Below are positions 6,894 to 34,882 of a DNA stretch of 34,882 nucleotides, piece by piece. Below the pieces are notes generated by a model, which saw only the letters and a list, made by a program, of their open reading frames with translations, did not search any database and had not been told where the DNA came from. The stretch comes from a virus. Both the position numbers and the translations under genes were made by a program. The stretch's first letter is position 1. Every line of letters starts with the position of its first letter. The DNA lies in IMG/VR virus record IMGVR_UViG_3300041411_000096, positions 1 to 34,882 of that record, one strand, 5' to 3'.

Positions 6894-7324
6894 ACGCAGA
6901 TGGCTCCCATGCCAGCCCTGTCACGCAGGTGCAGGTATTCAAGGCCGTATGGGGTAAGGGCCAGGGACGCTTCCCACACCGTCAGACTGGCGTTAGCCGC
7001 CGGGATGGCGTAGGACACCGACTCGTCACGAACGCCCTTGCTTGCCACTGCGTATGGTGTCGAGGCGCTACCATCTGAGCCGGTGGCGTCAGATGTGGCC
7101 TTGTTCCAGGTCAGGTAGTGCGCCGCTAGGGCGAACCAGCCGCGCTGGAGGAATGAGTAGGGCTTGTAGTCGCCCCAGCTGCACGCGCCCAGCTCGCCGC
7201 GTGCGATGTACAGCGCCTTGGTGATGGATGCATCAGGCCAGGCGGTGACATTGGAAAATTCGGGGTAGAACGCTCGGAAGTCGGTCAGAACCGCCGGCGT
7301 CACTTCAATTGTCAGTTCAGCCAC
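6890..7324 (-). CDS. head-tail connector protein (DUF4054)
   Basis: A 144-aa protein. TDFRAFYPEFSNVTAWPDASIT followed by a Tyr/Trp-containing helix (LQRGWFALAAHYLTWNKA) fits DUF4054, a small adaptor family found right after the major capsid gene in these phages. The C-terminal VWEASLALTPYGLEYLHL is the usual end region. It probably forms the ring below the portal. The call is supported by both sequence flavour and order. Confidence 0.7.
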   Translation of the reverse strand: MAELTIEVTPAVLTDFRAFYPEFSNVTAWPDASITKALYIARGELGACSWGDYKPYSFLQRGWFALAAHYLTWNKATSDATGSDGSASTPYAVASKGVRDESVSYAIPAANASLTVWEASLALTPYGLEYLHLRDRAGMGAICV

Positions 7325-7340: not shown

Positions 7341-7370
7341 TGAAACAGCCCCTCGGGTTAGGAGGGGCTG
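7341..7370 (-). terminator. hairpin terminator after the 66-aa gene
   Basis: CAGCCCCTC (7346-7354) pairs perfectly with GAGGGGCTG (7362-7370) around a 7-base loop. On the minus strand it is followed by TTTCATTC, a weak U-tract. It lies between the capsid-side genes and the connector genes and probably lowers expression of the latter relative to capsid. Confidence 0.6.
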
Positions 7371-7377
7371 CGGGGTG

Positions 7378-7578
7378 TTACTTGGATTTCGCCTTGGGCT
7401 CGACACGCTCGGGCTCAGGCTCGACGCTTTCTATCTTCAGCCAGTTGGCCTTAGCGAACAGGCCTTCCTTCAGCTCAGCTGCATACTCGTCGTCGAAGTT
7501 CTCGACAACCTCGCCGGACTGAATCGTCAGGCCGATGAGCACCAGCGGGTGAAGGCTGGTATTGGTCAGAGTTGCCAT
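7378..7578 (-). CDS. small hypothetical head-region protein
   Basis: A 66-aa protein, MATLTNTSLHPLVLIGLTIQ to a Lys/Glu/Pro-rich tail (PEPERVEPKAKSK). It follows the major capsid gene by a few bases and is followed by a hairpin terminator. I do not recognise a family. The acidic centre and charged tail suggest a small structural or assembly factor. Confidence 0.55.
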   Translation of the reverse strand: MATLTNTSLHPLVLIGLTIQSGEVVENFDDEYAAELKEGLFAKANWLKIESVEPEPERVEPKAKSK

Positions 7579-7587
7579 GCGAGCCCC

Positions 7588-8565
7588 TTAGATGTTATCC
7601 ACGTACAGGTGCGACGCTGGTACGCGCAACTCAGTACCAGCAGTGCGGACAACGCCCGCCGCTTCAAACTGCAAGCCACCATGCGATGGGATTGGAGCGT
7701 TGAGCGTGTATGGCATCGGAAGGTGGAACTTGGCGAACTGTGGGTTCTTGGTGTAGACCATCATGCGATTGCCGCCGCCAGCACCGGCGGTTGCCGCCTG
7801 CAGGACTGGCTCGATGGTGATCTTGAGAACGCGCTCCAGGTAGCTGATCAGGGTCTCCGCAGTGTTCGGGATGCGGAAGGTGACCAGCAGGCCGTATTCG
7901 GTCAGCGGCAACAGGATGTGCGTTGGACGGAAAATCGAGTTGGTCTGAACCGCGTAAACTTGCAGGATCGCTTTGTTCAGCAGGGTCAGGATCTCGTTTG
8001 CCGCGGTCTCTCCGCCAGCAGCCAGGATCGCTGCGATGGTTTTGTTCGCGCCGCCGAGCAGGGTGCCGGACGAGGTAACCGGAACGCCTGGGTACTTCAG
8101 CAGGCCGCCAGTGGCCAGCGAAGGCCAGCGGGCATCGCCGACGAAAGCCACGCGATCGAGCCACTGCTCGGTCAGGGTGCGGACAGCGATTGGCTTCTCG
8201 GCCAGCAGGTTGATTGCACCGCCGAAACCTTGGGTGCCGGCCATTTGCTGGGCCTTGCCGATTTCGATCTGGGTGTAGGCATAGCCCAGGCCAGCCTGAA
8301 CCACGTCAACGCCACCGACCTTGGCTGCGATCTCGGCCAGCGGAAAGTCGTGAGCGGTATCGCCGATTGGAGCCGGCTCACCCTTGTAGTCGAGAACCTT
8401 GAAGGCGATCGACTCGATGTAGTCCGGGGCCGAGGTGTCCACCGTCAGGATCGACGGGTATTTGATATCTGGGTACTGCTGACGCAGGACTTCTTGCTCG
8501 ATGTAGGTCAGTTGACCCATCAGGAAGCCCAGTTGCGCCTGGGGGGAAGCGTCGAAAGTCTTCAT
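7588..8565 (-). CDS. major capsid protein (DUF2184)
   Basis: A 325-aa protein. Features include QLGFLMGQLTYIEQEVLRQQ, the segment ILTVDTSAPDYIESIAFKVLD and VVQAGLGYAYTQIEIGKAQQMAG, typical of the DUF2184 major capsid family with an HK97-type fold. No N-terminal delta domain is obvious, in keeping with a separate scaffold. It lies after the cement protein gene and before the connector genes. It would be the most abundant virion protein and makes the icosahedral shell. Confidence 0.8.
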   Translation of the reverse strand: MKTFDASPQAQLGFLMGQLTYIEQEVLRQQYPDIKYPSILTVDTSAPDYIESIAFKVLDYKGEPAPIGDTAHDFPLAEIAAKVGGVDVVQAGLGYAYTQIEIGKAQQMAGTQGFGGAINLLAEKPIAVRTLTEQWLDRVAFVGDARWPSLATGGLLKYPGVPVTSSGTLLGGANKTIAAILAAGGETAANEILTLLNKAILQVYAVQTNSIFRPTHILLPLTEYGLLVTFRIPNTAETLISYLERVLKITIEPVLQAATAGAGGGNRMMVYTKNPQFAKFHLPMPYTLNAPIPSHGGLQFEAAGVVRTAGTELRVPASHLYVDNI

Positions 8566-8577
8566 TCGATCTGATCC

Positions 8578-9087
8578 TTAAGCGGCGATGGTGGTTGGCG
8601 CGATGGCTTTGATCTGTACCAGCACCATTTCGCCAGCGGCAGCAGCCGTCAGGAACGTGCAGCCAGCCAGAACGTGGTTACCAGCGGTTGCGGCGTTGGT
8701 GATCTCGCCAGTGGCTGGCAAGGCGTAGACCTGAGCGCCTTTGACGGCGCCGGCCAGGGTCTTCACCCAGATCCGGCCGTGCGCGACCAGACTGGCTTCT
8801 TGACCAGCGCGGTAGCCGCCGACGACGTTGCCGTTGTCCGAGGACTGGCCGGTCAGGTAGCTACCACTGACGCCGGAAGCGTTTCGGGCCGAGATGCCGA
8901 GGAAGAAGCCGGCACCAGCAGCAGGCAGCTTGCCCGAGCGATCAGCAGTGTCAGAGACGACTGCGCGACCGAACGGAACGGCGACCGTTACCACTGCGGT
9001 GGTGATGTCGGCCATGGCCAGATCATTGACCTGACCCTCGAAGGCCTTGCCGGCGTACTGGCCGAAGGTATCTTGAACAATGCCCAT
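8578..9087 (-). CDS. capsid cement/decoration protein (Gp24-like)
   Basis: A 169-aa, Gly/Ala/Val-rich, beta-structured protein (MGIVQDTFGQYAGKAFEGQV; FLGISARNASG; GHVWVKT-like strand HGRIWVKTLAG). This style is typical of structural cement proteins encoded next to DUF2184 capsid genes. Cement proteins sit at three-fold or quasi-three-fold sites and stabilise the expanded head. It overlaps the stop of the DUF2213 gene by one base. Confidence 0.65.
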   Translation of the reverse strand: MGIVQDTFGQYAGKAFEGQVNDLAMADITTAVVTVAVPFGRAVVSDTADRSGKLPAAGAGFFLGISARNASGVSGSYLTGQSSDNGNVVGGYRAGQEASLVAHGRIWVKTLAGAVKGAQVYALPATGEITNAATAGNHVLAGCTFLTAAAAGEMVLVQIKAIAPTTIAA

Positions 9088-9638
9088 TACTTTTCACCCC
9101 GCAGGTATTTGGCGTAAGCGTCAGAACCGTCGAGAGTCGTCTTGGTGCTAGCGTTAGCTGCGTCCTTGGCGAACTGCTTCAGGCTGTCGTTGACTTTCGA
9201 CTTGTCGTCGTCCTCGTCGTCGCCTTTCTCGTCTGCGTCATCCGCAGCGGCGTCGAAGGCGGACAGAACGTAGGCCTCGGATTTGGAAGCCCAGTCACGG
9301 GTCGGCTTGAGCTGCGCCATTGCGGCACGCTTGATCTCGATCGGGGACACCAGGCCCTTCGCGTCGAACGACTTCACAACCTTGGAGGCCAGGGCGATAG
9401 TGTCGAGGGTGGACTTCACGCGAGCGCCGATAGCGGTGTCAGAAGTTTCCTTCTTGGCCTCTGCCAGCTTCTCTTCGGCTTCGTCCTTGGTGGCCTCGGC
9501 CTTGTCTGCGCGTTCCGACGCTTCATCAGCGAATTTCTGAAGGGCTGCAACGGCGTCTTCGACTACCAGGGCAACCTCTTCGTCTACGGTGATGGAGCGG
9601 CTTTTCTTGGAGTCTAAAAAGACTTTCCGTTGTGCCAT
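9087..9638 (-). other. possible internal in-frame scaffold start within the DUF2213 gene
   Basis: ATG at 9636-9638 lies exactly between the protease-like and coiled-coil halves and has GAAAGGTG about 5 bases upstream. Initiation here would give a 183-aa scaffold (MAQRKVFLDSKKSRS onward) without the protease domain, as lambda Nu3 is nested in C. This is an inference from spacing and domain boundary only. Confidence 0.35.
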
Positions 9639-10193
9639 TGGTACACCTTTCGGTTTGTGGTCAAAAATGCGGGCGACCTTGCCGCCTCGCGCTGCTGCTA
9701 CAACGGCGACGTGGTTGATCTGGATGTCACGCTGCTCGTATTCGTATGCGGTGCCGGACGCAGGGTCGATGCCAGGGGCTTCGACGTACTCGGCCAGGTA
9801 GCCGGGGGATAGCTCAGCCTTGCCCGACTCGATGTCGTCGATGGCTGTCTGGTCCTTGATGATCAGGTCGACCACCAGGTTGTCGCCGTCCTGCGCAACT
9901 CCGCGCACATGGCCGACCGAGACCTCCTTGAACGTCTTGGAGTCAACCAAGTCGTCCGGGTGGTCGTTGGTCACGTCCTTATCAGGGAAGGTGGCCATCG
10001 ACTCAGGGGCGAACACCTGGGAGGGTGGACGGTAGACATTGACGATGCGCTCGGGCCCGTCGAGGTCCAGCTCGCTCGACAGGTACTGATAAACCCCGGT
10101 GCGCGCTGCAACCCCCTTCACGCAGAGGAAACCCTCGGGCGTGAGTGTTCGCGACGTAGGCTTGAAGGCCTCATCGATGGTCATTTTCTTCAT
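9087..10193 (-). CDS. DUF2213 capsid maturation protease / scaffold
   Basis: A 368-aa two-part protein. Residues 1-185 match DUF2213, a putative prohead protease-like domain, with NVYRPPSQVFAPESMATFPD, TNDHPDDLV and GKAELSPGYLAEY; H and S in TNDHP and ELSPG are candidate catalytic residues. Residues about 186-330 are charged and coiled-coil-like (DEASERADKAEATKDEAEE), as in scaffolds. The tail is Asp/Glu-rich then basic. It should guide and process capsid assembly between MuF and the cement gene. Start ATG 10191-10193 reads MKKMTIDEAF. Confidence 0.7.
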   Translation of the reverse strand: MKKMTIDEAFKPTSRTLTPEGFLCVKGVAARTGVYQYLSSELDLDGPERIVNVYRPPSQVFAPESMATFPDKDVTNDHPDDLVDSKTFKEVSVGHVRGVAQDGDNLVVDLIIKDQTAIDDIESGKAELSPGYLAEYVEAPGIDPASGTAYEYEQRDIQINHVAVVAAARGGKVARIFDHKPKGVPMAQRKVFLDSKKSRSITVDEEVALVVEDAVAALQKFADEASERADKAEATKDEAEEKLAEAKKETSDTAIGARVKSTLDTIALASKVVKSFDAKGLVSPIEIKRAAMAQLKPTRDWASKSEAYVLSAFDAAADDADEKGDDEDDDKSKVNDSLKQFAKDAANASTKTTLDGSDAYAKYLRGEK

Positions 10194-14953: not shown

Positions 14954-16141
14954 TTAAACCGAATAAACAGCGCGACGTTTCGAAGCTTCAGCACCTGGCA
15001 CAGCGTTGGAGATGATGTCCTTCACCTCTTCGGCGCTGATGGTGATGCGGCCCTTCTCGCCGTAAGTCTTTGAGCGCAGCACGGCGCTCAGGCATGCACG
15101 GGACCGCCAGCCACCGTCGTGTGCGTACTTGTCGCCCGGGGCGAGCTGATTCCACGACTCGACCGTAACGCCGGCGGACTCCTTCGACTGCATGCGGTGG
15201 TGGATATGGCCGATGTCGATGTAGCGGTAGGTCGACTCGCCCCAGTCCACGGAGAAGTCGGTCGCCATCACGTCAATCAGCCGATCCGGCTTGCACTTGT
15301 CGCTGTGGTGACACATCACGAAGGTGTTGCCCATGCGGTACGGGATGAACACGCTCGAGTTGTCTAGGACGTGGAGCCGTGGGTTTTCCTGATAGACGTG
15401 GTTCAGGAAGATCCGCATCCACACATCGTTCGAGCGGGAGTGGTTGCCCTGGTTGACGATCACATCCACGAACTGGAACTTGGCCAGGGCCTTGTCGACG
15501 ATCGAGCGCATGATCCGGGCGCAGACCTCGATCATCTTCGGGTAGCGGCTGTCGAAGTCGAAGTCGTGCCCGGACTCACTCTTGGCGGTGAAATCCTGAT
15601 AGTGCGACATGTCCCCCAGATCCTGAATGACGCAGCGCTCGCAGCTTGGCGCCCGGTCGATCAGCTTGTGCATGGCGACGATCAATTCGCGCTCGGCGAT
15701 CTTCAGGTCGAAGTTGTGGCCGACCTCATGGCTATGGGCCAGCATCCCAATATGGGCGTCACCGATTTGAAACCACGGGATGATGTCGGTATCCAAGACC
15801 TCAATAGGCCCTGGAATTTCAGGCAGCGGGTTGACGTCTTCCAGAAAGGCTTTGGCGAAAGCCTCGTTCAATGCGCGCTGCCGTTCGTGGTCGATTGACG
15901 TCTTCACCCACTGCAATACCGGCGCCTTCACGCCTTCCTTGTACAGGCTCGACGTGCCTTTCAGGTGGTATCCGTCCGGCACGATATGGGTCATGTCGTG
16001 TTCTGGGCTCCAGCCCCTGCGAGCCATCCGCGCTTTGCGCTTCTGCAAGCTGCGCAGGTGCAGGCCCAGGTGCTCGGCAGCCTTGGGCATTGTCATGGTC
16101 TTGAGGGCTTCAATGACCTGGTCGTCGGTTACTTTGATCAT
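14954..16141 (-). CDS. calcineurin-like metallophosphoesterase with N-terminal HTH
   Basis: A 395-aa protein. Residues 5-42 look like a helix-turn-helix (VIEALKTMTMPKAAEHLGLH, then LRSLQKRKARMARRG). The phosphoesterase motifs follow in order: D128-A-H130, G176-D177, G232-N233-H234, H278/H279 and G311-H312-I-H314. All metal ligands for a two-metal centre are present. Lambda ninI is also a phosphatase at this map position, but here the family is the larger calcineurin-like type. The DNA-binding domain suggests action on nucleic acid (nuclease or 3'-end processing) rather than on phosphoproteins. It overlaps its upstream neighbour by ATGA. Confidence 0.8.
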   Translation of the reverse strand: MIKVTDDQVIEALKTMTMPKAAEHLGLHLRSLQKRKARMARRGWSPEHDMTHIVPDGYHLKGTSSLYKEGVKAPVLQWVKTSIDHERQRALNEAFAKAFLEDVNPLPEIPGPIEVLDTDIIPWFQIGDAHIGMLAHSHEVGHNFDLKIAERELIVAMHKLIDRAPSCERCVIQDLGDMSHYQDFTAKSESGHDFDFDSRYPKMIEVCARIMRSIVDKALAKFQFVDVIVNQGNHSRSNDVWMRIFLNHVYQENPRLHVLDNSSVFIPYRMGNTFVMCHHSDKCKPDRLIDVMATDFSVDWGESTYRYIDIGHIHHRMQSKESAGVTVESWNQLAPGDKYAHDGGWRSRACLSAVLRSKTYGEKGRITISAEEVKDIISNAVPGAEASKRRAVYSV

Positions 16142-16347
16142 TGTGCGGCTCCAGCCAGTGATTTGGTTTTAAGTGCTGCATGTGCCTGCCAGCCAATCCA
16201 GCAGCCGTGCATGTATGCGTGTTTGCTGTAGTCGTCGCTTTCGCCGCGGAGCGCCTGCATTTCTTCCAGAGACAGGTCGTTTCCGGTGACGTGGAGATTG
16301 CGCAATGCGAACCAGCGCTCAAATTCCTTTCGAACTGGATCGCTCAT
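16138..16347 (-). CDS. 69-aa hypothetical protein
   Basis: MSDPVRKEFERWFALRNLHV followed by LEEMQALRGESDDY and a Trp-rich segment (MHGCWIGWQAHAAL). Small helical proteins of this style, with ExW and GWQA patterns, are common in Pseudomonas and enteric phage early regions, function unknown. Overlapping start and stop codons tie it to both neighbours. Confidence 0.6.
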   Translation of the reverse strand: MSDPVRKEFERWFALRNLHVTGNDLSLEEMQALRGESDDYSKHAYMHGCWIGWQAHAALKTKSLAGAAQ

Positions 16348-16538
16348 GACGCCACCTTCAGGCTGTTCAGATGCTCAACACATGCCGCCTTGGCTTTGGC
16401 CAGATCCGTGCCCGAGTGCAGGATTTTCTGCTTCGGGCAGCGGGCGACGTAGGCAGACCCATCCTGCAAGGCGTACTTGCTGATCAGGTAGCCGTCATCC
16501 GAGGCGAGGCAGTGTTTGGTGGTTTGCTTCCAGCTCAT
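16344..16538 (-). CDS. 64-aa hypothetical protein
   Basis: MSWKQTTKHCLASDDGYLIS then KYALQDGSAYVARCPKQKIL; compact, probably beta-rich. The start at 16536-16538 is chosen because it overlaps the stop of the preceding tiny gene (ATGA); an upstream in-frame extension looks like the other-frame copy of that gene. No family recognised. Confidence 0.55.
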   Translation of the reverse strand: MSWKQTTKHCLASDDGYLISKYALQDGSAYVARCPKQKILHSGTDLAKAKAACVEHLNSLKVAS

Positions 16539-16630
16539 GACCGCCCCCTCGACCAGTTGATGAACTGGCCTTCCAAACAGAACCAGCCAATGCCGAGCAG
16601 GGTCGCGATGGTGCAGGTGGTTTCGATCAT
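16535..16630 (-). CDS. 31-aa single-membrane-segment peptide
   Basis: MIETTCTIATLLGIGWFCLE followed by GQFINWSRGRS. One hydrophobic segment and a basic tail. Both ends overlap neighbours as ATGA, so it fits the chain of coupled genes even though it is tiny. Function unknown; a small membrane-active peptide. Confidence 0.45.
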   Translation of the reverse strand: MIETTCTIATLLGIGWFCLEGQFINWSRGRS

Positions 16631-16761
16631 GGCCGAACTCCCCGCGCAATCCGGTCCCGGCGCAGCAGTCGGCGGCAGGACTCAATGAGGCCCCCAGAAA
16701 GGACCAGCAAGAAGGCAATCCACAAATTAACCAGGATGTCGCTTGAGATGATGGTCATCAT
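16627..16761 (-). CDS. 44-aa single-membrane-segment protein
   Basis: Starts MMTIISSDILVNLWIAFLLV; the hydrophobic segment extends to about residue 25, then a strongly basic tail (ESCRRLLRRDRIARGVRP). Its ATG overlaps the NinG stop and its own stop overlaps the next start. Probably an inner-membrane peptide with cytoplasmic basic tail. Function unknown. Confidence 0.5.
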   Translation of the reverse strand: MMTIISSDILVNLWIAFLLVLSGGLIESCRRLLRRDRIARGVRP

Positions 16762-17339
16762 GCTGCTTGCCTCTTGAGTTCGCGGGTTTTGGCGCGGTAG
16801 TCGGCGGTAATGGCTTTCAGGTCTTCGATGGTGTAGCGCTGGGGCTCATGAGGCCCTTCCAGCCAGTCAACGAGCTCGGCACCGATCCGCTTCACCAGCT
16901 CGATGCGGTAGTTCACGATGTCGCCGGACTTGTGCGTGTTGCATGGCGAGCATTGGCGGTGGCAATTCAGCGGCTCGAAGCGCAGCGCGGGGTTGCTCCC
17001 GACCGTCCGGTAATGCCCGGCGTCGTACTTGCCCTGGTGATGGCGACCACAGCTGATGCATGGCAGCTTGGCGTCACGCTCGCGCACCCAGGCGTTGAAA
17101 GCGGTCTGAGCCTCACGCATGTACTGACCCTTCGGCTTAATGCGCTCCTTGGCGGCTTGCAGCTCCTTGCGGCCTACATCGGCGAGGGCCTTGCGTGCCT
17201 TCTCCTGATTCACGCTCTTGATGGCGAGACCGCAGGCGAAGTTGCATACGGCTTGCCCGAGGCGCTGCGGCACAAATAAGGCCCTGCAATCTGGGTTCTT
17301 GCAGGTTTTTGGGCGAGGTTGCTTCGATGGGAGAGTCAT
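16758..17339 (-). CDS. ninG: NinG recombination protein
   Basis: A 193-aa protein matching lambda NinG (Rap, recombination endonuclease). The N-terminal zinc-binding part has C13, C18, C32 and C36 (KTCKNPDCRALFVPQRLGQA). A basic helical linker follows. The core has LPCISCGRHHQGKYDAGHY then RFEPLNCHRQCSPCNTHKSG and IELVKRIG, the conserved HNH-like nuclease centre. NinG cleaves branched recombination intermediates. It lies downstream of NinB as in lambda, with ATGA overlaps. Confidence 0.88.
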   Translation of the reverse strand: MTLPSKQPRPKTCKNPDCRALFVPQRLGQAVCNFACGLAIKSVNQEKARKALADVGRKELQAAKERIKPKGQYMREAQTAFNAWVRERDAKLPCISCGRHHQGKYDAGHYRTVGSNPALRFEPLNCHRQCSPCNTHKSGDIVNYRIELVKRIGAELVDWLEGPHEPQRYTIEDLKAITADYRAKTRELKRQAA

Positions 17340-21530: not shown

Positions 21531-21577
21531 GCTGGAGTTTAGCTACTTGTATATTTCAAACTTAGCGCCGGGCTGTA
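21504..21577. promoter_or_regulatory. OR-like operator cluster (three sites)
   Basis: Perfect 17-bp site at 21504-21520 (TTTAGC GCAAC GCTAAA); a half-conserved site at 21538-21554 (TTTAGC, degenerate right half); and CTTAGC GCCGG GCTGTA at 21561-21577. They fill the cro-cI intergenic region. A TATATT at 21550-21555 could be the -10 of the cI maintenance promoter, with no clear -35, as expected for an activator-dependent promoter. Confidence 0.6.
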
Positions 21578-21588
21578 ATCCTGACGGC

Positions 21589-22362
21589 ATGGATATCAAA
21601 TCGATTCGCCGTACAAACATGATTGCCCTTCTGAAGGGGCGATCGAAAGCCGACTGCGCAGAGCTGTGGGGGACGTCTGCGTCCTACCTGAGCCAGATGC
21701 TGTCGAAGAATGCTACCCGCAGCATTGGCGACATGATGGCGCGTCGCGTGGAGGCAGCCGAGCTGCTGCCTCATGGATGGCTTGACCAGGTTCATGACTT
21801 AGCCGATAACTCTGCGCTAAATAACGTCGTTCGCCTGCCGATACAAAGGGAGAGCGACTTGCACCTGATTGGGGAGATTTCCCCGTGGGACAGCGACACG
21901 CCATTGGAAAGCGAGGAAGTAGAAGTGCCCCTTTATAAAGAGGTCGAGATTTCTGCGGGCAATGGAGCAACATCGGTCCAACCCATCCCTGGGCGCTGCA
22001 TTCGACTTTCGAGGTCAACCTTGAGGGATGCTGGGGTCGAGCCAGCCAATGCAATGGCTGCCACCGTGGCCGGTAACAGCATGTCGCGATTGATTCTTGA
22101 TGGCTCTACGGTGGGAATTGACAAGGGGACCACCCACATTATCGATGGCGAAATCTACGCGATCGAGCACAGCGGAATGCTGCGGGTGAAGTACCTCTAT
22201 CGTCAGCCGGGCGGTGGATTGCGCCTCAGGTCTGAAAACTCGGATGAGCATCCAGACGAGATCTACTCGGCTGACGAAGTGGCGGATACCATTCGTATCA
22301 TTGGCTTCGTTTTCTGGTGGTCAACCATTCGACCAACCCGTGGCCGGGGCAGAACACTTTAA
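21589..22362 (+). CDS. CI-like repressor with LexA/S24 peptidase domain
   Basis: 257 aa from ATG 21589. Residues 1-65 are the HTH domain (LLKGRSKADCAELWGTSASY, LSQMLSKNATRSIGD). The C-terminal S24 domain has the catalytic Ser164 in VAGNSMSRLI and Lys201 in MLRVKYLYR. ISAGNGATS (A123-G124) is the likely Ala-Gly self-cleavage site. This predicts RecA-dependent, SOS-sensitive lysogeny. Upstream residues in the longer frame (MYISNLAP) lie in the operator region and are rejected. It keeps both early promoters off. Confidence 0.87.
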   Translation: MDIKSIRRTNMIALLKGRSKADCAELWGTSASYLSQMLSKNATRSIGDMMARRVEAAELLPHGWLDQVHDLADNSALNNVVRLPIQRESDLHLIGEISPWDSDTPLESEEVEVPLYKEVEISAGNGATSVQPIPGRCIRLSRSTLRDAGVEPANAMAATVAGNSMSRLILDGSTVGIDKGTTHIIDGEIYAIEHSGMLRVKYLYRQPGGGLRLRSENSDEHPDEIYSADEVADTIRIIGFVFWWSTIRPTRGRGRTL

Positions 22363-26645: not shown

Positions 26646-27371
26646 ATGTCCACGAATATGCGCATCTGGGGCCAGGTCGATAAGACTGACACCCGCTACA
26701 CCAAAGAAGCCAAGGTCGGCGGCCAACAGATCACCAGCCTAAACGGCACGGCGATGATCATGAAGGCCACCGAAGTGTTTGGTCCGGCCGGCATAGGCTT
26801 TGGCTGGACGGTGCTGGAGGAGCGCTTCGACAAGGGCGCGGAGATCTTCGTCGGCGAGGGGGACAAGCGAGCCAGTCTCGGCTTCGAGCTGAACCACACC
26901 GTCAAAATCATGTTCTGGATCAAGCAAGACGGCGAGCGCGGCGAGTTTGAGCAGTACGGCTGCACGCCCTACCTCTACAAGAGCAAGTACGGCACCACAA
27001 CTGATGGCGAGGCGCCGAAGAAGTCCCTCACCGACGCCATCAAGAAATCCCTGTCGATGCTCGGCTTCAGCGCAGACGTGTTCCTCGGGATGTTCGACGA
27101 CCGCGACTACGTCCAGCAGCGGCAGGAAGAGCAAGCCATTGAGCAGGCTGTCGACAAGGACGCGGAAATCGCCAAGCAGCAGCAAGATCGCCTCGATTAC
27201 ATCAAATCAGTGATCGACAACATGCACGGCGCCAAAGCCCCGCACGAGCTCAAGAAAATTCATGACGTCGCCGTCCGCCAGCTCACGCTGCGCAAGGACG
27301 ACAAGGGCGCGGCCCGGATATCGCTGGAATGGAAAAAACTCTCTGAACCCAAACAGGAGACGGTCGTATGA
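26646..27371 (+). CDS. putative single-strand annealing recombinase
   Basis: A 241-aa protein. Core features: GTAMIMKATEVFGPAGIGFG, later APKKSLTDAIKKSLSMLGFS and ADVFLGMFDD. The K-S-L-T-D-A-I-K-K-S-L-S-M-L-G helix followed by the F-D-D turn recalls Rad52/Sak-type annealing proteins of phages. The C-terminal 70 residues are charged and helical. Next to Gp157 and close to other DNA-metabolism genes, as recombinases usually are. It would anneal ssDNA for recombination. No exonuclease partner is obvious. The family call is by motif resemblance. Confidence 0.5.
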   Translation: MSTNMRIWGQVDKTDTRYTKEAKVGGQQITSLNGTAMIMKATEVFGPAGIGFGWTVLEERFDKGAEIFVGEGDKRASLGFELNHTVKIMFWIKQDGERGEFEQYGCTPYLYKSKYGTTTDGEAPKKSLTDAIKKSLSMLGFSADVFLGMFDDRDYVQQRQEEQAIEQAVDKDAEIAKQQQDRLDYIKSVIDNMHGAKAPHELKKIHDVAVRQLTLRKDDKGAARISLEWKKLSEPKQETVV

Positions 27372-27931
27372 CTCAGCTCTACGCGCTCACCGGCAAGCTG
27401 GCCGAACTTCAGGCCATGGCCGACACCGACGATGAGGGCCTGAAAGAGGCGCTTCAGTACGCCATGGACGATATCCAGGGCGCATTTGAAGTGAAGGCCG
27501 ACAACATCGTCATGCTTCGCCGAAATATCGAAAGCGACGTCACGGCGATCGACACCGAGATCGAGCGGCTGACGGAGCTCAAACGCATCAAGAGCAACAG
27601 CGTGGCTCAAATCAGCGACTACCTGCGCAGAAACATGGAGGCGGCGAACCTCAAGTCGATCAAGCGCCCCCTCTTCACCATCACCCTGGCCATGGGGAAA
27701 GAGAAGGTCATCGTCGACAACGAAGATGCAGTGCCCGATGAGCTGACGGCAGTGAAGACCAGCATTGCGCCAGACAAAACCGCAATCGCCGCCAAGCTCA
27801 AGGAAATTCGCGACCACAACGAAGCGGTGCGCAAGCGCATGGAAGCGGGCGAAGACGCAGAACACGAATTGCTCCCCGAGCCGGCATGGGCTCACCTGGA
27901 GCGCGGTGATAGCTCAATCCGGATCAAGTGA
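27368..27931 (+). CDS. Siphovirus Gp157 family protein
   Basis: A 187-aa protein: MTQLYALTGKLAELQAMADT, then coiled-coil (VMLRRNIESDVTAIDTEIER, LTELKRIKSNSVAQISDYLR) and RPLFTITLAMGKEKVIVDN followed by VPDELTA. This order of coiled-coil, NLKSIK and beta-hairpin with V-P-x-E is diagnostic of Gp157, first noted in Streptococcus phages and linked to phage resistance and recombination loci. Coupled by ATGA to the annealing protein. Confidence 0.85.
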   Translation: MTQLYALTGKLAELQAMADTDDEGLKEALQYAMDDIQGAFEVKADNIVMLRRNIESDVTAIDTEIERLTELKRIKSNSVAQISDYLRRNMEAANLKSIKRPLFTITLAMGKEKVIVDNEDAVPDELTAVKTSIAPDKTAIAAKLKEIRDHNEAVRKRMEAGEDAEHELLPEPAWAHLERGDSSIRIK

Positions 27932-27968
27932 GGCCGCCACGAACGCACACATCAGCACTGAACTCAGC

Positions 27969-28586
27969 ATGATCCAGATGCTCGACCCTCAACGCCACGA
28001 ACTGGCACTGCTGCAGGAGGCCTTCTTGAATAAAGGAGGGACTATTGAGGTATTGCAGGGCCCGAGCTTTGTTCCGCCACCGGTGAGGCACGATCCGCCA
28101 CCGACAGTGAAAGCCAAGCCGGCGAAACAAGCGGCAGAGCCCGGCCGAGTCGACAAGCTCACCCAGCGCGACATCGAGCGTGAAGAGCGAGCGGCGCAGG
28201 CGGCCAAGGATAAGCACGAACTGACCGAGCGCATCCGCAAGCTGGCCGAGACGATGAATTACTCGCAAGCCATTCTGCGCACCGGCCTTGCGCGCCGGAC
28301 CTTGTACAAAATCGCCAAAGACGGCGGCTTCACATTCCAGCCGGCCGCGTTCAAGAGTCAGGGCAATCTGCGCCGGGCCACTGTCGACGAGGCCAAAGAC
28401 GCCAAGGATGCCGAGCGCATCAAGGCCTTCAAGGAAATCGGGCTCACCCGCAATCAGGCCATGGAGAAGACCGGGATATCGTTCACGGCCTTCATTCGGA
28501 TCCTGACCAAGTTCGAGATCGACTATCCGAAGTCGGCTCGCGGCGGGCCACGGCCTGTGTTCATTGCGAAAGCCAAAAAGCAGTAG
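27969..28586 (+). CDS. helix-turn-helix DNA-binding protein
   Basis: 205 aa from ATG 27969 (MIQMLDPQRHELALLQEAFL). A Pro-rich linker precedes a charged helix. Two HTH-like units follow: NYSQAILRTGLARRTLYKIA (about residues 96-115) and GLTRNQAMEKTGISFTAFIR (about 160-180). A basic tail ends it. No strong Shine-Dalgarno is visible; earlier in-frame codons overlap Gp157. It may regulate the right operon or bind replication intermediates. Confidence 0.55.
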   Translation: MIQMLDPQRHELALLQEAFLNKGGTIEVLQGPSFVPPPVRHDPPPTVKAKPAKQAAEPGRVDKLTQRDIEREERAAQAAKDKHELTERIRKLAETMNYSQAILRTGLARRTLYKIAKDGGFTFQPAAFKSQGNLRRATVDEAKDAKDAERIKAFKEIGLTRNQAMEKTGISFTAFIRILTKFEIDYPKSARGGPRPVFIAKAKKQ

Positions 28587-28595
28587 GAGTGACCC

Positions 28596-28973
28596 ATGGC
28601 AGCCGCGCAGAAAGAACGATCGGCAAAGACTGCGGCGAGGCGAAAGACTCGCGGCGAGGAAGAAATCAGGCTGCATTGCATGGCCGGAACCCGGCAGGCC
28701 CTGGCTGAGCTAATGGCCTGGAGCGGCATCGAGGAACAGGGCGAGGCCATCACGCTGATGATTCACCATCTGCATGCATTAGGGCCTCAAAAGTGTCTGC
28801 CGCTGCTTACAGCCCCGCGACACGTTATTGAGCTCTCCCAAAACGTGTCGCGGGCTTTTCACCGGAAGAGCCTGCAGATGATTCAGCAGGATCCGGGGGA
28901 TGAGATTATTGACCCTTGTCAAAAAAGTTCAGCTCTGCAAACCGTAACCACTTGGAATGGGCTGACCACATAG
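28596..28973 (+). CDS. putative DNA-binding regulator
   Basis: A 125-aa protein. Basic N-terminus (KERSAKTAARRKTRGEEEIR), a helical centre with MAGTRQALAELMAWSGIEEQ and GEAITLMIHHLHALG, then APRHVIELSQNVSRAF. The centre is like small ribbon-helix or Arc-like phage regulators common in Pseudomonas. AGGAG precedes the ATG. The codons for RHV...NVSR form the second copy of the 36-bp inverted repeat. The last 20 codons overlap a convergent gene. Confidence 0.5.
   Translation: MAAAQKERSAKTAARRKTRGEEEIRLHCMAGTRQALAELMAWSGIEEQGEAITLMIHHLHALGPQKCLPLLTAPRHVIELSQNVSRAFHRKSLQMIQQDPGDEIIDPCQKSSALQTVTTWNGLTT
28814..28854. repeat. inverted repeat, copy 2, with terminator-like tail
   Basis: CCCGCGACACGTT (28814-28826) pairs exactly with AACGTGTCGCGGG (28842-28854) across 15 bases, then CTTTTC. 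The 11-base core equals that of the repeat at 20585-20620. It could be a regulator site and also act as a weak intrinsic terminator inside the gene. Confidence 0.55.
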
Positions 28974-29115
28974 CGCGTTCGAGCTCTTTCGCCTTCTCGC
29001 GGAAGTTCTCGTCCGCCTTGTCATGCCCTGCATAGAAGTCCTTGAGTTTCGCTGATGCTGCGCTCAGTACTGCAAGCAGTGCGTTGCTTTGTTCGATTAC
29101 CTTCAGATCGGCCAC
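28906..29115 (-). CDS. 69-aa protein on the opposite strand within the right operon
   Basis: GTG start at 29113-29115 with AAGGAG upstream: MADLKVIEQSNALLAVLSAA, then SAKLKDFYAGHDKADENFRE and LERAMWSAHSKWLRF. Composition and helix pattern are protein-like and it occupies a stretch with no plus-strand gene. Convergent with the regulator upstream and divergent from the methyltransferase. No family recognised; no clear promoter seen. Confidence 0.5.
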   Translation of the reverse strand: MADLKVIEQSNALLAVLSAASAKLKDFYAGHDKADENFREKAKELERAMWSAHSKWLRFAELNFFDKGQ

Positions 29116-29223
29116 GGCTTCATCTCCTTGATCCGGCTCCATGCCGGGCTATCCGTAATACCCCACCACAAACCAAATTGCCACCACCGGTTGCGGAGGG
29201 CGGCGCCTGACTGGAGCTCACCT

Positions 29224-29991
29224 ATGGCCACGGAACCCTGGCTGTACCTCGGCGATTGTCTCGAGGTTATGAAATCCATGCCGGATAACAGCGTCGACAT
29301 GGTTCTCGCCGATCTTCCCTACGGCACAACCCAGTGCGCCTGGGACGTGATCATCCCCTTCGAGCCGCTCTGGCGTGAGTATCTGCGGATTGCCAAGCCG
29401 GAAGCCGCCATCGTGCTTTGCGCGGCCCAGCCGTTCTCCTCGATGGTCGTGGCCAGCAACCCGAAGCACTACCGGTACGAATGGATCTGGGAGAAAGGTA
29501 ACGCCACCGGTTTCCTGAATGCCAAGAAGCAGCCGCTCCGGGCACACGAAAGCGCTCAAGTCTTCTACCGGCAGCAACCGGTGTACAACCCGCAGATGTC
29601 GACCGGGCATGAGCGCAAGACCAGCAAGCGCAAGACGGTCGATTCGGAATGCTACGGAAAGGCGATCAGCCTCACCGAATACGACTCGACAGACCGGTAC
29701 CCGCGATCGGTTCAGTTCTTCTCCAGCGACAAGCAGACCGGCAGCTTTCACCCAACACAGAAGCCGGTCGCCTGGATGAAGTTCCTGATCAGCACCTACA
29801 CCAACCCGGGCCAGGTGGTAATGGATAACACGATGGGAAGCGGCACCACTGGTGTTGCCTGCCTTCAGCTCAACCGCCGATTCCTCGGCATCGAGCAGGA
29901 CGAAGCGATATTCGGTACCGCGAAAGACCGACTGGATGCCGAGCTGATTCGGGTGAATACGCCTGAGCCGCAAATCGACATGTTCTCCTGA
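29224..29991 (+). CDS. beta-class DNA methyltransferase (N6-adenine or N4-cytosine)
   Basis: 255 aa from ATG 29224, GGAG 8 bases upstream. Motif IV is DLPYG at 30-34, a variant of DPPY. HPTQKP (176-181) and the SAM-binding motif I DNTMGSGTTG (201-210) follow, giving the beta-class order IV then I. Proline is replaced by Leu in motif IV and by Asn in D-P-x-x-G-S-G. No restriction enzyme gene is adjacent, so this is a solitary phage methylase, probably protecting phage DNA from host restriction. Confidence 0.87.
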   Translation: MATEPWLYLGDCLEVMKSMPDNSVDMVLADLPYGTTQCAWDVIIPFEPLWREYLRIAKPEAAIVLCAAQPFSSMVVASNPKHYRYEWIWEKGNATGFLNAKKQPLRAHESAQVFYRQQPVYNPQMSTGHERKTSKRKTVDSECYGKAISLTEYDSTDRYPRSVQFFSSDKQTGSFHPTQKPVAWMKFLISTYTNPGQVVMDNTMGSGTTGVACLQLNRRFLGIEQDEAIFGTAKDRLDAELIRVNTPEPQIDMFS

Positions 29992-30279
29992 GAAATTCCG
30001 CTTCAACGAATCACGCCAGCTGAGGTCAGCTCAAAGCCAGCCTGTACGGCTGATGACGCTGATCAGGCGAATCACAGCGGCGATCAGGTTTATCCACTCA
30101 GTCAGTCGTTTCATGCGGCGAATCTCAGGTGTGTTGATAGCCATAGCTTGACCGCAGAGACCAGTTCGTCTTGCAGCGTTAAGCACACCTTGTGGATAGT
30201 CATCTCCTTGGACGACTCCATCACCACCACCTACCGCGCTGAACGCCCTGGCGGGATTTCGGCTGCACGGAGCAATCGA
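29992..30279. other. 288-base stretch without a clear gene upstream of phaZ
   Basis: No plus-strand gene with a good start is seen. A short minus-strand frame (MKRLTEWINLIAAVIRLISV, stop at 30031) is amphipathic but lacks a Shine-Dalgarno and is left unassigned. No promoter with good -10 and -35 was found, so phaZ is probably read from the upstream operon. Confidence 0.4.
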
Positions 30280-31137
30280 ATGAAGGCGTTTATATTCCGC
30301 ACCATCGACATCGACGGCCAAGCCATCCGCACCGCGGTACGCCCGGGCAAGCCTCACCTGACACCTCTTCTGGTGTGCAACGGTATCGGAGCCAGCCTGG
30401 ATCTGGTTATCCCCTTCGTGGCAGAGCTTGACCCGGATCAGGAGGTGATCGCCTTCGACGTGCCGGGCGTTGGTGAGTCGCCGACTCCGAGATACCCCTA
30501 CCGATTCAGCGGCCTCGCCGATACGGTCGCGAAGATGCTGACCGCGCTGGGTTACGAACAGGTCAATGTAATCGGCATCTCATGGGGCGGATTCCTCGCG
30601 CAGGTGTTCGCTCACGATCACCCGAGCCGCTGCGCAAAGCTGATCCTGGCCGCTACCTCGCACGGAGTTCTGGGCGTGCCGCCATCGCCTCGAGTGCTTG
30701 CGCTGATGGCCAGCCCGAGGCGCTACACCGATCCGGAATACGGCGCATCGATTGCCCCAGACATTTATGGCGGCTCGTTCCGCAACAACCCTGAGTTGTG
30801 CGCCCGGCACTTCGCGAAAATGAAGCCAGCCGGCGGCAAGGGTTACACCTATCAGATTATGGCCGTTTATTGGTGGACCAGCCTGCGCTGGCTGTACCGG
30901 ATCAAGCAGCCGACCCTGGTCCTCGCCGGCAACGATGATCCGCTGATTCCGCTGGTGAATATGCGCGTCATTGCCGGCCTGATTCCGAACTCAGAACTCC
31001 ACGTCATCGACGACGGCCATTTGTTCCTGATCACTCAGGCCAAGGTCGTTGCGCCGATTGTCACGGCGTTTCTGTCTGCACACAAAGAGCCGCGCGGGGC
31101 TGCCGTGAATGAATTAGTTTCAGTGGGGGTTGTATGA
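30280..31137 (+). CDS. phaZ: phage-encoded poly(3-hydroxyalkanoate) depolymerase
   Basis: 285 aa, matching in length and pattern the intracellular mcl-PHA depolymerase PhaZ of Pseudomonas (alpha/beta hydrolase that releases 3-hydroxy fatty acids from PHA granules). Conserved stretches: IRTAVRPGKPHLTPLLV, VIAFDVPGVGESPTPRYPYR, lipase box G99-I-S101-W-G and IDDGHLFLIT. The triad is S101, D220, H247, one residue off the S102/D221/H248 I recall for P. putida PhaZ. Start ATG 30280 has GGAG 7 bases upstream. Its stop overlaps the next phage gene (ATGA), and no phaC or phaD is nearby, so it is part of the phage operon and not the host pha cluster. Confidence 0.9.
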   Translation: MKAFIFRTIDIDGQAIRTAVRPGKPHLTPLLVCNGIGASLDLVIPFVAELDPDQEVIAFDVPGVGESPTPRYPYRFSGLADTVAKMLTALGYEQVNVIGISWGGFLAQVFAHDHPSRCAKLILAATSHGVLGVPPSPRVLALMASPRRYTDPEYGASIAPDIYGGSFRNNPELCARHFAKMKPAGGKGYTYQIMAVYWWTSLRWLYRIKQPTLVLAGNDDPLIPLVNMRVIAGLIPNSELHVIDDGHLFLITQAKVVAPIVTAFLSAHKEPRGAAVNELVSVGVV

Positions 31138-31556
31138 GTGATGTGACCGTATATCTGGCAAGTGATCTGCATCCAAGCGAGCATGTTGTTCTGCAGCCAG
31201 ATTTTGATTCGTTGTCATTTGATTTGGCTGCTTTGCGGGAAGAGCTGGCGACTGCTAAGCGCAACGAACACAACTCTGAAGTTGCTTACAAGGCGGCAAT
31301 CGAAAAGCAGGGTGAGTTGCGGGAAGACCTTGCCGCCATCGTCAATAATCGCAATGAACTGAAGCATCGCCTGACCGCCGCCGAGCAGCGGAATGCCGAC
31401 GTCAATACCGAGGCAGCTGCAAAGATGCTGGCCGCCTGCATGGATTATCCGTGGGAGCACATGCCCGAAAATGGTCGATCTCTGATGCGCAAGCACGCGA
31501 AGGATGTTGTCGACGCGGCACTGGCCAAGCCCACCGAATCGGGAGCAAGCGAATGA
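31134..31556 (+). CDS. 140-aa coiled-coil early protein
   Basis: MSDVTVYLASDLHPSEHVVL, then a coiled coil (FDLAALREELATAKRNEHNS ... ELKHRLTAAEQRNADVNTEA) and a C-terminal segment with YPWEHMPENGRSLMRKHAKD. Resembles Ead/Ea22-type early proteins. Coupled by ATGA to phaZ upstream and by ATGA to the next gene. Function unknown. Confidence 0.6.
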   Translation: MSDVTVYLASDLHPSEHVVLQPDFDSLSFDLAALREELATAKRNEHNSEVAYKAAIEKQGELREDLAAIVNNRNELKHRLTAAEQRNADVNTEAAAKMLAACMDYPWEHMPENGRSLMRKHAKDVVDAALAKPTESGASE

Positions 31557-33590: not shown

Positions 33591-33797
33591 ATGTCTCACA
33601 TTGAAGAAAGAGAAGGCCGCATCTACGCGGCGCAGATGCTTGCGTCTGTCGTTTACCTGCCGCGCTGCATGTTCGATGAGCGCGGGCCGGTGGAGACGAT
33701 GGTTTGCAATCTGGAAGTAGCAGCGCTGACCCATCCAGCGGATTACGCCAAAGGCATGCTGCAAGTGCTCAGCGAGGTGCGCCATGTCCAGCATTGA
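33591..33797 (+). CDS. 68-aa hypothetical protein
   Basis: MSHIEEREGRIYAAQMLASV followed by YLPRCMFDERGPVETMVCNL. GGAG lies 6 bases before the ATG. Helical. No family recognised. The next gene starts inside it. Confidence 0.5.
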   Translation: MSHIEEREGRIYAAQMLASVVYLPRCMFDERGPVETMVCNLEVAALTHPADYAKGMLQVLSEVRHVQH

Positions 33798-33996
33798 CGT
33801 ACACGAAAGACGCCCCGACGGCGCCGTCGGCAAGCTGCTCGACGTGATCGACCGCCAGCCCGAACACCGCAAGACCGGCAGCTTCGTCGAGTTTGACGGC
33901 GAGATGCACCCGGTCCTGACCGGTATCCGCAACTTCATCATCGTCACGACTGAGCGCTGGGCGCGGGTGTCGGCTGCTACCTGGAGGAAGGCATGA
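33784..33996 (+). CDS. 70-aa hypothetical protein
   Basis: MSSIDVHERRPDGAVGKLLD then beta-rich KTGSFVEFDGEMHPVLTGIR. GAGGTGCGCC lies before its ATG. Possibly a small beta protein. Overlaps both neighbours. No family recognised. Confidence 0.5.
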   Translation: MSSIDVHERRPDGAVGKLLDVIDRQPEHRKTGSFVEFDGEMHPVLTGIRNFIIVTTERWARVSAATWRKA

Positions 33997-34250
33997 AGCA
34001 CAAACTCTACTCCGGTTTACAAGTCGGCAAAGTCACCCTTGTTCGAAGAGTTGAAGGCGAGAAAGGTCGCGGCCCGCGCTGGATCTGTCGCTGCGAGTGT
34101 GGCGAAGAGATTGAGAAAAGCCGAGACACCCTCACCAACCCAAATGTGATTCAGCGCTGCAAAAACTGTTTCGTAAAGTCACAGCGCGCCTATTCGAACT
34201 TGCGAATTGCCACGGGCCTTCCTGTAAACCAATGGAGCGACAAGCCATGA
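33993..34250 (+). CDS. 85-aa zinc-ribbon protein
   Basis: MKHKLYSGLQVGKVTLVRRV, then ICRCECGEEI with C32, C34 and C36, and RCKNCF with C56 and C59: a zinc ribbon. The start G-K-V-T-L-V-x-R and W-I-C-R-C-E-C-G are typical of small phage proteins that often accompany HNH endonucleases. It probably binds DNA. Coupled (ATGA) to both neighbours. Confidence 0.6.
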   Translation: MKHKLYSGLQVGKVTLVRRVEGEKGRGPRWICRCECGEEIEKSRDTLTNPNVIQRCKNCFVKSQRAYSNLRIATGLPVNQWSDKP

Positions 34251-34882
34251 GCGAGCGCGACGAACTGATCGAACTCTGCAAGATCGCCCAGCACCTTGGC
34301 GGCCCGCAGAACCTGAGCGCCGTCGGCATCGGCCGATATCTGCGCCTGTGCAGCCCGGAAGTGGTTTTGGCGCTTATCGAAGCCGGGCAATCCCGCAAGG
34401 ACTGGCAGGCTGAATGCCTGAAGAAAGGTTTCGAGTATGTCCGCGAATCTGACGACCACTACGTTCTGGCTGATGTTCCAGAGATGGCGGAACTGCTTGC
34501 CGACCTGCTCGGCGTTGAAGTCCGATCGAAGGAAAACGACAGCTACGGCGAAACGGTCAGCAGCCTGAGCGAGCAGGTCGAATCAGCCAACAACGCTTTC
34601 CATCGGGCCTATGAGCTTGAGAAAGAGTGTGAGGCGCTGCGTAAGGACAAGGATCGCCTTGACGCTCTGGAGTCGAACTTTTGGGATGTCCGGCACGGTA
34701 GTCATCCAATCGCAGACACGGGCGACAGCAGCAGCTCGTTGGAAATTGTTGGTCACTGGATGGGCAAGCCATTCGAGCGGGTGATTGGCGAGGACTGGAA
34801 CGAGAACCTGCGCGCCGCCATTGATCAAGCTATGAAGGCGCCCGCCTATCCACCGGCTCGCCCTGAATACGAATTTGATGAG
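34247..34882 (+). CDS. Ea22-like coiled-coil protein (3' end outside window)
   Basis: 212 codons open to the right edge from ATG 34247. MSERDELIELCKIAQHLGGP, SPEVVLALIEAGQSRKDWQA, a coiled coil (VESANNAFHRAYELEKECEA) and later RVIGEDWNENLRAAIDQAMK. This mixture fits the long Ead/Ea22-type early proteins. No stop within the window. Confidence 0.6.
   Translation, partial: MSERDELIELCKIAQHLGGPQNLSAVGIGRYLRLCSPEVVLALIEAGQSRKDWQAECLKKGFEYVRESDDHYVLADVPEMAELLADLLGVEVRSKENDSYGETVSSLSEQVESANNAFHRAYELEKECEALRKDKDRLDALESNFWDVRHGSHPIADTGDSSSSLEIVGHWMGKPFERVIGEDWNENLRAAIDQAMKAPAYPPARPEYEFDE

Follow-up and report, generated by a model that had tools for sequence, protein, structure and literature searches.

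A virus-only clade of homologues of the intracellular mcl-PHA depolymerase PhaZ in phage genomes

Introduction

Phage auxiliary genes are known to steer photosynthesis, nucleotide metabolism and sulfur metabolism. In soil and on roots, where starvation is the usual state of the cells, PHA is a main reserve of Pseudomonas. The term depolymerase is also applied to the capsule and EPS depolymerases of phages, which are virion-attached polysaccharide lyases or hydrolases.

Intracellular depolymerisation of mcl-PHA has been ascribed to Pseudomonas alone (PMC12504323), and knockout of phaZ leaves PHA undegraded (PMC3918157). The PhaZ of P. putida KT2440 has a Ser102/Asp221/His248 triad beneath a lid bounded by residues 133-192; the enzyme is inactive once lid or hinge segments are deleted, and the hinge substitution S184F exchanges depolymerase activity for esterase activity (PMC12504323). 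Phage AMGs for PHA synthesis (phaC, phbB and others), some of them transcribed, have been described in PHA-producing mixed cultures, in a text that mentions neither phaZ nor a depolymerase (PMC12013262).

Here we describe a phage-borne phaZ. Its product resembles KT2440 PhaZ in length, triad, oxyanion loop and lidded alpha/beta-hydrolase architecture, but belongs to a separate clade with fixed changes in the pocket and lid, and the gene lies in phage genomes, outside any phaC1-phaZ-phaC2 operon. It shares with the AMGs of the mixed cultures that it is a phage-borne gene acting on host PHA metabolism; however, those are synthesis or precursor genes, whereas viral phaZ is predicted to degrade the store and forms a viral clade of its own. 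With the capsule and EPS depolymerases it has nothing but the word in common, being by homology a cytoplasmic polyester hydrolase and no tail protein. We found no description of a phage PhaZ in the literature, only of phage PHA synthesis genes, although most subscription journals were outside our coverage. No match above 30.9% identity was present among the isolated phages of INPHARED, and none above 21% identity among the 50 matches listed from BFVD.

Results

Identity of the phage-encoded protein

The DNA analysed here, referred to as the window, is the IMG/VR record IMGVR_UViG_3300041411_000096 at its full length of 34,882 nucleotides. Judged by its sequence, the ORF at the centre of this study (Table 1) is a PhaZ. 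The protein scores 410.2 bits against TIGR02240, the NCBI equivalog profile for poly(3-hydroxyalkanoate) depolymerase, above the cut-off of 250.6 bits. The runner-up family reaches only 109 bits, well under its own cut-off, as do all other families listed, and the cut-offs for PcaD and other families are missed by far. The triad is intact, with Ser101 in GISWGG, Asp220 in NDDP and His247 in DDGHL aligning with Ser102, Asp221 and His248 of KT2440 PhaZ. The length, conserved blocks and complete triad on which the initial annotation had based its assignment to PhaZ are thus borne out.

In an AlphaFold2 model (mean pLDDT 85.7) the protein is an alpha/beta-hydrolase whose helical lid spans residues 137-196. 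Among solved folds the closest belong to esterases, to an enol-lactonase and to an acyl-homoserine-lactone esterase; a PHB depolymerase ranks 35, and a sequence search for solved structures returned no close relative. The only PHROG matched is phrog_789 (esterase/lipase, 104 bits), which like PhaZ is an alpha/beta-hydrolase but represents a broad family of 637 positions. Translation is assigned to the ATG at 30280, which follows a GGAG ribosome-binding site by 7 nt; an alternative TTG start at 30148, giving a longer ORF, is unnecessary, as conservation across phages begins with the noncoding 45-bp leader and this ATG.

Table 1. Features of the window around viral phaZ.
Feature	Position	Strand	Basis or relation
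CI-like S24 repressor	21547..22362	+ (as phaZ operon)	PF00717, phrog_4
Recombination genes: exonuclease, Gam/Gp157-like	26646..27931	+	phrog_7838, phrog_253, PF05565
HTH-like gene and phrog_5439, left edge of cargo region	27938..28973	+	common to L002, L003, L006
N6/N4 DNA methyltransferase (cargo), upstream of phaZ	29089..29991	+	phrog_67, PF01555
Short conserved sequence before methyltransferase	29132..29215	+	88% to L003 6749-6833
Noncoding leader with GGAG ribosome-binding site	30236..30279	+	nearly invariant in four early-operon phages
Viral phaZ, intracellular mcl-PHA depolymerase homologue	30280..31137	+	285 aa; TIGR02240, triad/lid alignment, AF2
Oxyanion-region loop NGIGAS, residues 34-39	30379..30396	+	alignment
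Nucleophile elbow Ser101-Trp-Gly-Gly-Phe105-Leu	30580..30597	+	alignment
Lid domain	30673..30855	+	KT2440 lid 133-192; model helices 137-196
140-aa coiled-coil-like phage ORF downstream of phaZ	31134..31556	+	overlaps phaZ by ATGA
Conserved genes right of cargo region	33774..34254	+	85% to L003 14998-15481

The window phage and its early region

The window is a temperate, contractile-tailed phage of Pseudomonas type. Its portal, head protease, major head protein, tail sheath and tape-measure genes all lie on the minus strand, as do the genes for a helicase loader and a DnaT-domain protein, and the plus strand carries the CI-like S24 repressor, exonuclease and Gam/Gp157 genes. The isolated phages nearest to it by DNA are mostly Pseudomonas phages, at low coverage. 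Upstream of phaZ on the same strand stand the exonuclease, Gam/Gp157, phrog_5439 and DNA methyltransferase genes, the last of which probably starts near 29225. The position of phaZ downstream of the repressor and recombination genes on one strand is the layout of the lambda PL-type early operon of lambdoid phages, and from this layout we infer that phaZ occupies a repressor-proximal, PL-like early operon.

The phaZ stop codon overlaps the start of the next ORF as ATGA (31134-31137), and translational coupling with this 140-aa ORF, which has no PHROG or Pfam match, is inferred. Both the phage genes flanking phaZ and the ATGA overlap had been remarked upon in the initial annotation, as had the lack of phaC or a phasin gene nearby; these observations hold, and the window contains no PhaC_N or phasin match. 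Close to the window phaZ, no site resembling a promoter was found. The GC and GC3 contents of phaZ match those of the neighbouring phage genes. The HTH-like early gene that borders the cargo region on the left occurs in further IMG/VR phages as well, and in the related record L003 the counterparts of the right-flank genes sit directly before an integrase (16011-17183).

The leader, of about 45 bp, is identical or nearly so (45/45) between the window and three related records, L002, L003 and L006, when phaZ itself is only about 78% identical and its synonymous sites have accumulated roughly 0.75-0.9 substitutions per site. It was seen before phaZ only. It cannot be the coding tail of an upstream gene, as its frame is closed by a stop no more than about 15 codons further upstream; one additional base in L006 shifts the leader into the phaZ frame, and no upstream ORF reads through it. 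Nor did it qualify as a structured RNA, folding no better than shuffled sequences (z 0.16). It may serve either in translation control or as a short boundary for module exchange. The conserved sequence before the methyltransferase has a counterpart in L003 that precedes different cargo, the target genes of a diversity-generating retroelement, and is a possible boundary for the exchange of cargo modules.

Viral phaZ in five phage settings

Scans of IMG/VR with protein patterns recovered 13 further records with PhaZ relatives (65-80% identical). Because several of these are near-duplicates (L004/L005; L007/L008/L011; L009/L010), the five phage settings into which they fall, the window type and four besides, are a safer count than the number of records. 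The early-operon setting comprises L002, L003 and L006, where phaZ is 75-80% identical and the flanking early genes are common to all. In L007-L011 phaZ is carried in a terminator-promoter cassette: in L007 an intrinsic terminator (6941-6956) and a sigma-70-like promoter (6987-7015) are followed immediately by phaZ, the same sequence is present in L009, and the neighbourhood includes a methyltransferase, a DNA-polymerase exonuclease subunit and a DNA invertase, with a terminase in L009. The gene lies on the opposite strand to baseplate, sheath and tail genes in L004/L005, and on the opposite strand to head, neck and tape-measure genes in L107/L108. Finally, in the 86-kb record L106 phaZ and an HNH-type gene overlap by 4 bases in an operon-like arrangement.

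None of the 13 related records has a PhaC_N match, and no phasin match was found in the 12 tested (the record of L011 was left out). The copies of phaZ checked contain no internal stop codons. Joining of host and phage DNA by misassembly, which the initial annotation had named as grounds for refutation, is excluded on account of the independent records and the absence of phaC and phasin: phaZ and its conserved leader appear again in three other records of the same type, and phaZ in four further phage contexts. Every viral match lacks phaC, so that no chromosomal pha locus is hidden among them, and the idea that an entire pha segment was taken over from the host is likewise rejected for want of a PhaC_N or phasin match. 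A phasin partner downstream was considered and discarded, that place being taken by a pentapeptide-repeat protein in L009 and by the coiled-coil-like ORF in the window. The gene therefore satisfies the AMG criterion of lying among phage genes in bona fide phage genomes.

Only a minority of the phages sharing the early genes carry phaZ. Among the IMG/VR records with the flanking HTH-like gene it was seen only in L006 and in the record of L003 (which appears again as L084), in a scan that covered fetched DNA only; L002 and the window were known instead from the phaZ search. It was absent from the stretch examined of L076-L078, which have isolate-genome-like record names. Since so few records with the same early genes contain it, phaZ is optional cargo in a variable region.

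Several other genes near viral phaZ deserve mention. In L003 the early region carries, immediately before phaZ, a diversity-generating retroelement whose targets are two Lcl_C genes (parts at 7348-7452, 8042-8142 and 8740-8844; reverse transcriptase ORF at 8780-9940), in which 17/17 and 12/12 mismatches between variable repeat and template fall at template adenines. It is unusual for such an element to lie in an early operon and not at tail fibres. L002 and L006 keep the paired target repeats, with no template copy in the stretch searched. The pentapeptide-repeat gene of L009 (10854-11588) overlaps the downstream end of phaZ and is built of 15-bp repeat units whose number varies between close relatives. 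A cysteine dioxygenase homologue near phaZ in L007 (8959-9627; phrog_4786) is a possible second metabolic gene of the cargo region, and a 226-aa ORF that follows phaZ on the same strand in L004 (5507-6187), without a PHROG match and with an N-terminus that reads by eye as signal-anchor-like, is a possible partner in the insert.

Phylogeny and selection

In two maximum-likelihood trees the viral PhaZ proteins form one clade with support of 100/100, on a long stem and apart from all chromosomal rows. They lie closer to Pseudomonadaceae PhaZ than do the PhaZ-like outgroup rows, yet remain a separate, virus-only clade. The affinity to PhaZ proposed at the outset therefore stands, but the protein falls in a virus-only sister clade and not among chromosomal PhaZ. 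Branch lengths are uneven, and support is weak for the point at which the viral clade roots among the Pseudomonadaceae rows. Nevertheless, most viral PhaZ are 71-80% identical across unrelated phages (L107 and L108 are lower), which argues that the clade is not merely a product of long-branch attraction. Pairwise dN/dS values of about 0.07-0.25 among viral phaZ genes indicate purifying selection and thereby satisfy a second AMG criterion, upkeep of the gene by selection in phages. The pattern fits a single acquisition followed by long viral residence and transfer between phages, with a Pseudomonadaceae-type phaZ as the apparent source.

In a sample of 398 Pseudomonadaceae genomes, at one match per genome at the cut-off used, 257 have a PhaZ of their own, and no chromosomal PhaZ exceeds 67% identity to the window protein; in the genome of L013 phaZ is flanked on both sides by phaC genes. 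No integrated viral-type phaZ was detected in overlapping samples of 398 and 399 Pseudomonadaceae genomes (6 candidates scored per genome) or in a pattern scan of species genomes, none of which was exhaustive. The sole plasmid match of at least 60% identity, at 62%, is on a 1.17-Mb Pseudomonas replicon. Elsewhere in the order, genomes (L070-L074) encode PhaZ-like proteins that share 55-57% identity with the window protein (TIGR02240, 392-397 bits), some with C-terminal extensions.

Viral signatures at the active site and lid

All aligned viral PhaZ retain the triad with its lipase box, the NGIG oxyanion loop and the lid. When seven viral proteins were compared with 45 chromosomal PhaZ, 12 columns were fixed in all seven and different in at least 90% of the 45, and 22 columns conserved in chromosomal PhaZ were wholly replaced in the viral clade. 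These replacements are densest in the lid (8/42 conserved columns, against 5/100 and 7/61 in two parts of the core). The signatures include (KT2440 numbering) N40S, which is Ser39 of the window NGIGAS loop; A106F, which is Phe105 of the nucleophile elbow and is Ala or Gly in 45/45 chromosomal PhaZ; and D219N beside Asp221. All three are also present in L106-L108. Other clade-fixed changes are G136P, K137S and replacement of the lid-hinge W192. The window lid is unchanged in length, but its hinge motif YYWQLF is changed to YTYQIM.

Discussion

The evidence presented here is best explained if phaZ is an AMG encoding a virus-specific PhaZ that mobilises host mcl-PHA for replication, for lysogens or for both, a reading to which we assign a probability of roughly 0.6. 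Family, triad, phage location, the virus-only clade, purifying selection and the position in the early region can be read from the sequences; expression, granule binding and activity on mcl-PHA are inferred, as are the benefit to the phage and the physiological role. The gene would have been picked up, apparently once, from a Pseudomonadaceae-type phaZ and later have spread among unrelated phages. In the window it would be expressed from the PL-like early operon upon infection or induction, and the protein would bind mcl-PHA granules and hydrolyse them through the Ser-Asp-His triad under its lid. The (R)-3-hydroxyalkanoic acids so freed would be turned by the host into CoA thioesters and enter beta-oxidation; the resulting acetyl-CoA and reducing power would support phage replication at times when external carbon is scarce.

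That PHA persists in a phaZ knockout means that an extra PhaZ could shift the store. Hosts normally have a PhaZ of their own, however, so any advantage to the phage has to come from the timing or dose of the enzyme or from its escape from host control. The suggestion in the initial annotation that the gene supplies fuel is plausible but has not been shown. We entertain more tentatively, at somewhat less than even odds, the wider proposal that Pseudomonas phages share a dedicated PhaZ whose pocket and lid have been re-tuned to escape host control, allowing unrelated phages to replicate in starved, PHA-filled cells.

The settings in which phaZ is found bear on whether it instead acts as a lysogenic-conversion (moron) gene, with prophage phaZ altering PHA turnover in the lysogen, for example through quicker use during famine, and not serving lytic growth. 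Cargo on the opposite strand to virion genes is the classic moron layout. L004/L005 and L107/L108 have it, and an intrinsic terminator and a sigma-70-like promoter precede phaZ in L007 and its relatives, so these records satisfy the cassette criterion of an own promoter and terminator or opposite orientation. The window fails it, its phaZ having no promoter-like site nearby and lying in an early operon with an ATGA overlap to the next gene, and no integrated copy was encountered in the species-genome scan or the Pseudomonadaceae samples, neither of them exhaustive; we consider the moron reading unlikely. Early-operon and autonomous-cassette layouts together suggest use both in lytic growth and in lysogeny, in different phages.

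Because the pocket and lid changes are fixed in the clade, and because lid and hinge mutations have such strong effects in KT2440 PhaZ, altered substrate or regulation is possible, and a substrate shift is not excluded. A former PhaZ might have become an esterase or lipase acting on another ester (a membrane lipid, an acyl-homoserine lactone or a storage lipid) in takeover, signalling or lysis, and the 22 replaced columns, the concentration of changes in the lid, the Phe beside the nucleophile elbow and a fold common to lactonases and esterases would all be in keeping with this. We nevertheless regard such neofunctionalisation as improbable, given a score far over the PhaZ equivalog cut-off and far under those for PcaD and other families, and the occurrence of the same protein in all five contexts. 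The retained triad, oxyanion loop and lid length make mcl-PHA the most likely substrate; activity on it, inferred from these features in a protein in which some pocket and lid residues differ, is likely but unproven. Phages do acquire host genes, and the optional presence of phaZ in the window phage group would also be expected of a host gene caught by chance, as a transduction scar or misassembly without a selected role. That explanation is scarcely tenable in the face of a virus-only clade with a long stem, purifying selection, a leader that is conserved, repeated occurrence across independent metagenomes and in five contexts, and the lack of flanking host pha genes.

If the preferred reading of phaZ as an AMG for mobilising host PHA is correct, it adds a new target, the carbon store, to those of phage AMGs, although priority is not certain. 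The PhaZ lid is a current engineering target in bioplastic recycling, for which the viral clade offers natural PhaZ variants with altered lids. Phage growth in starved hosts becomes directly testable by knockout of a single gene, and our findings suggest that phages raid the carbon store of their hosts during infection or lysogeny.
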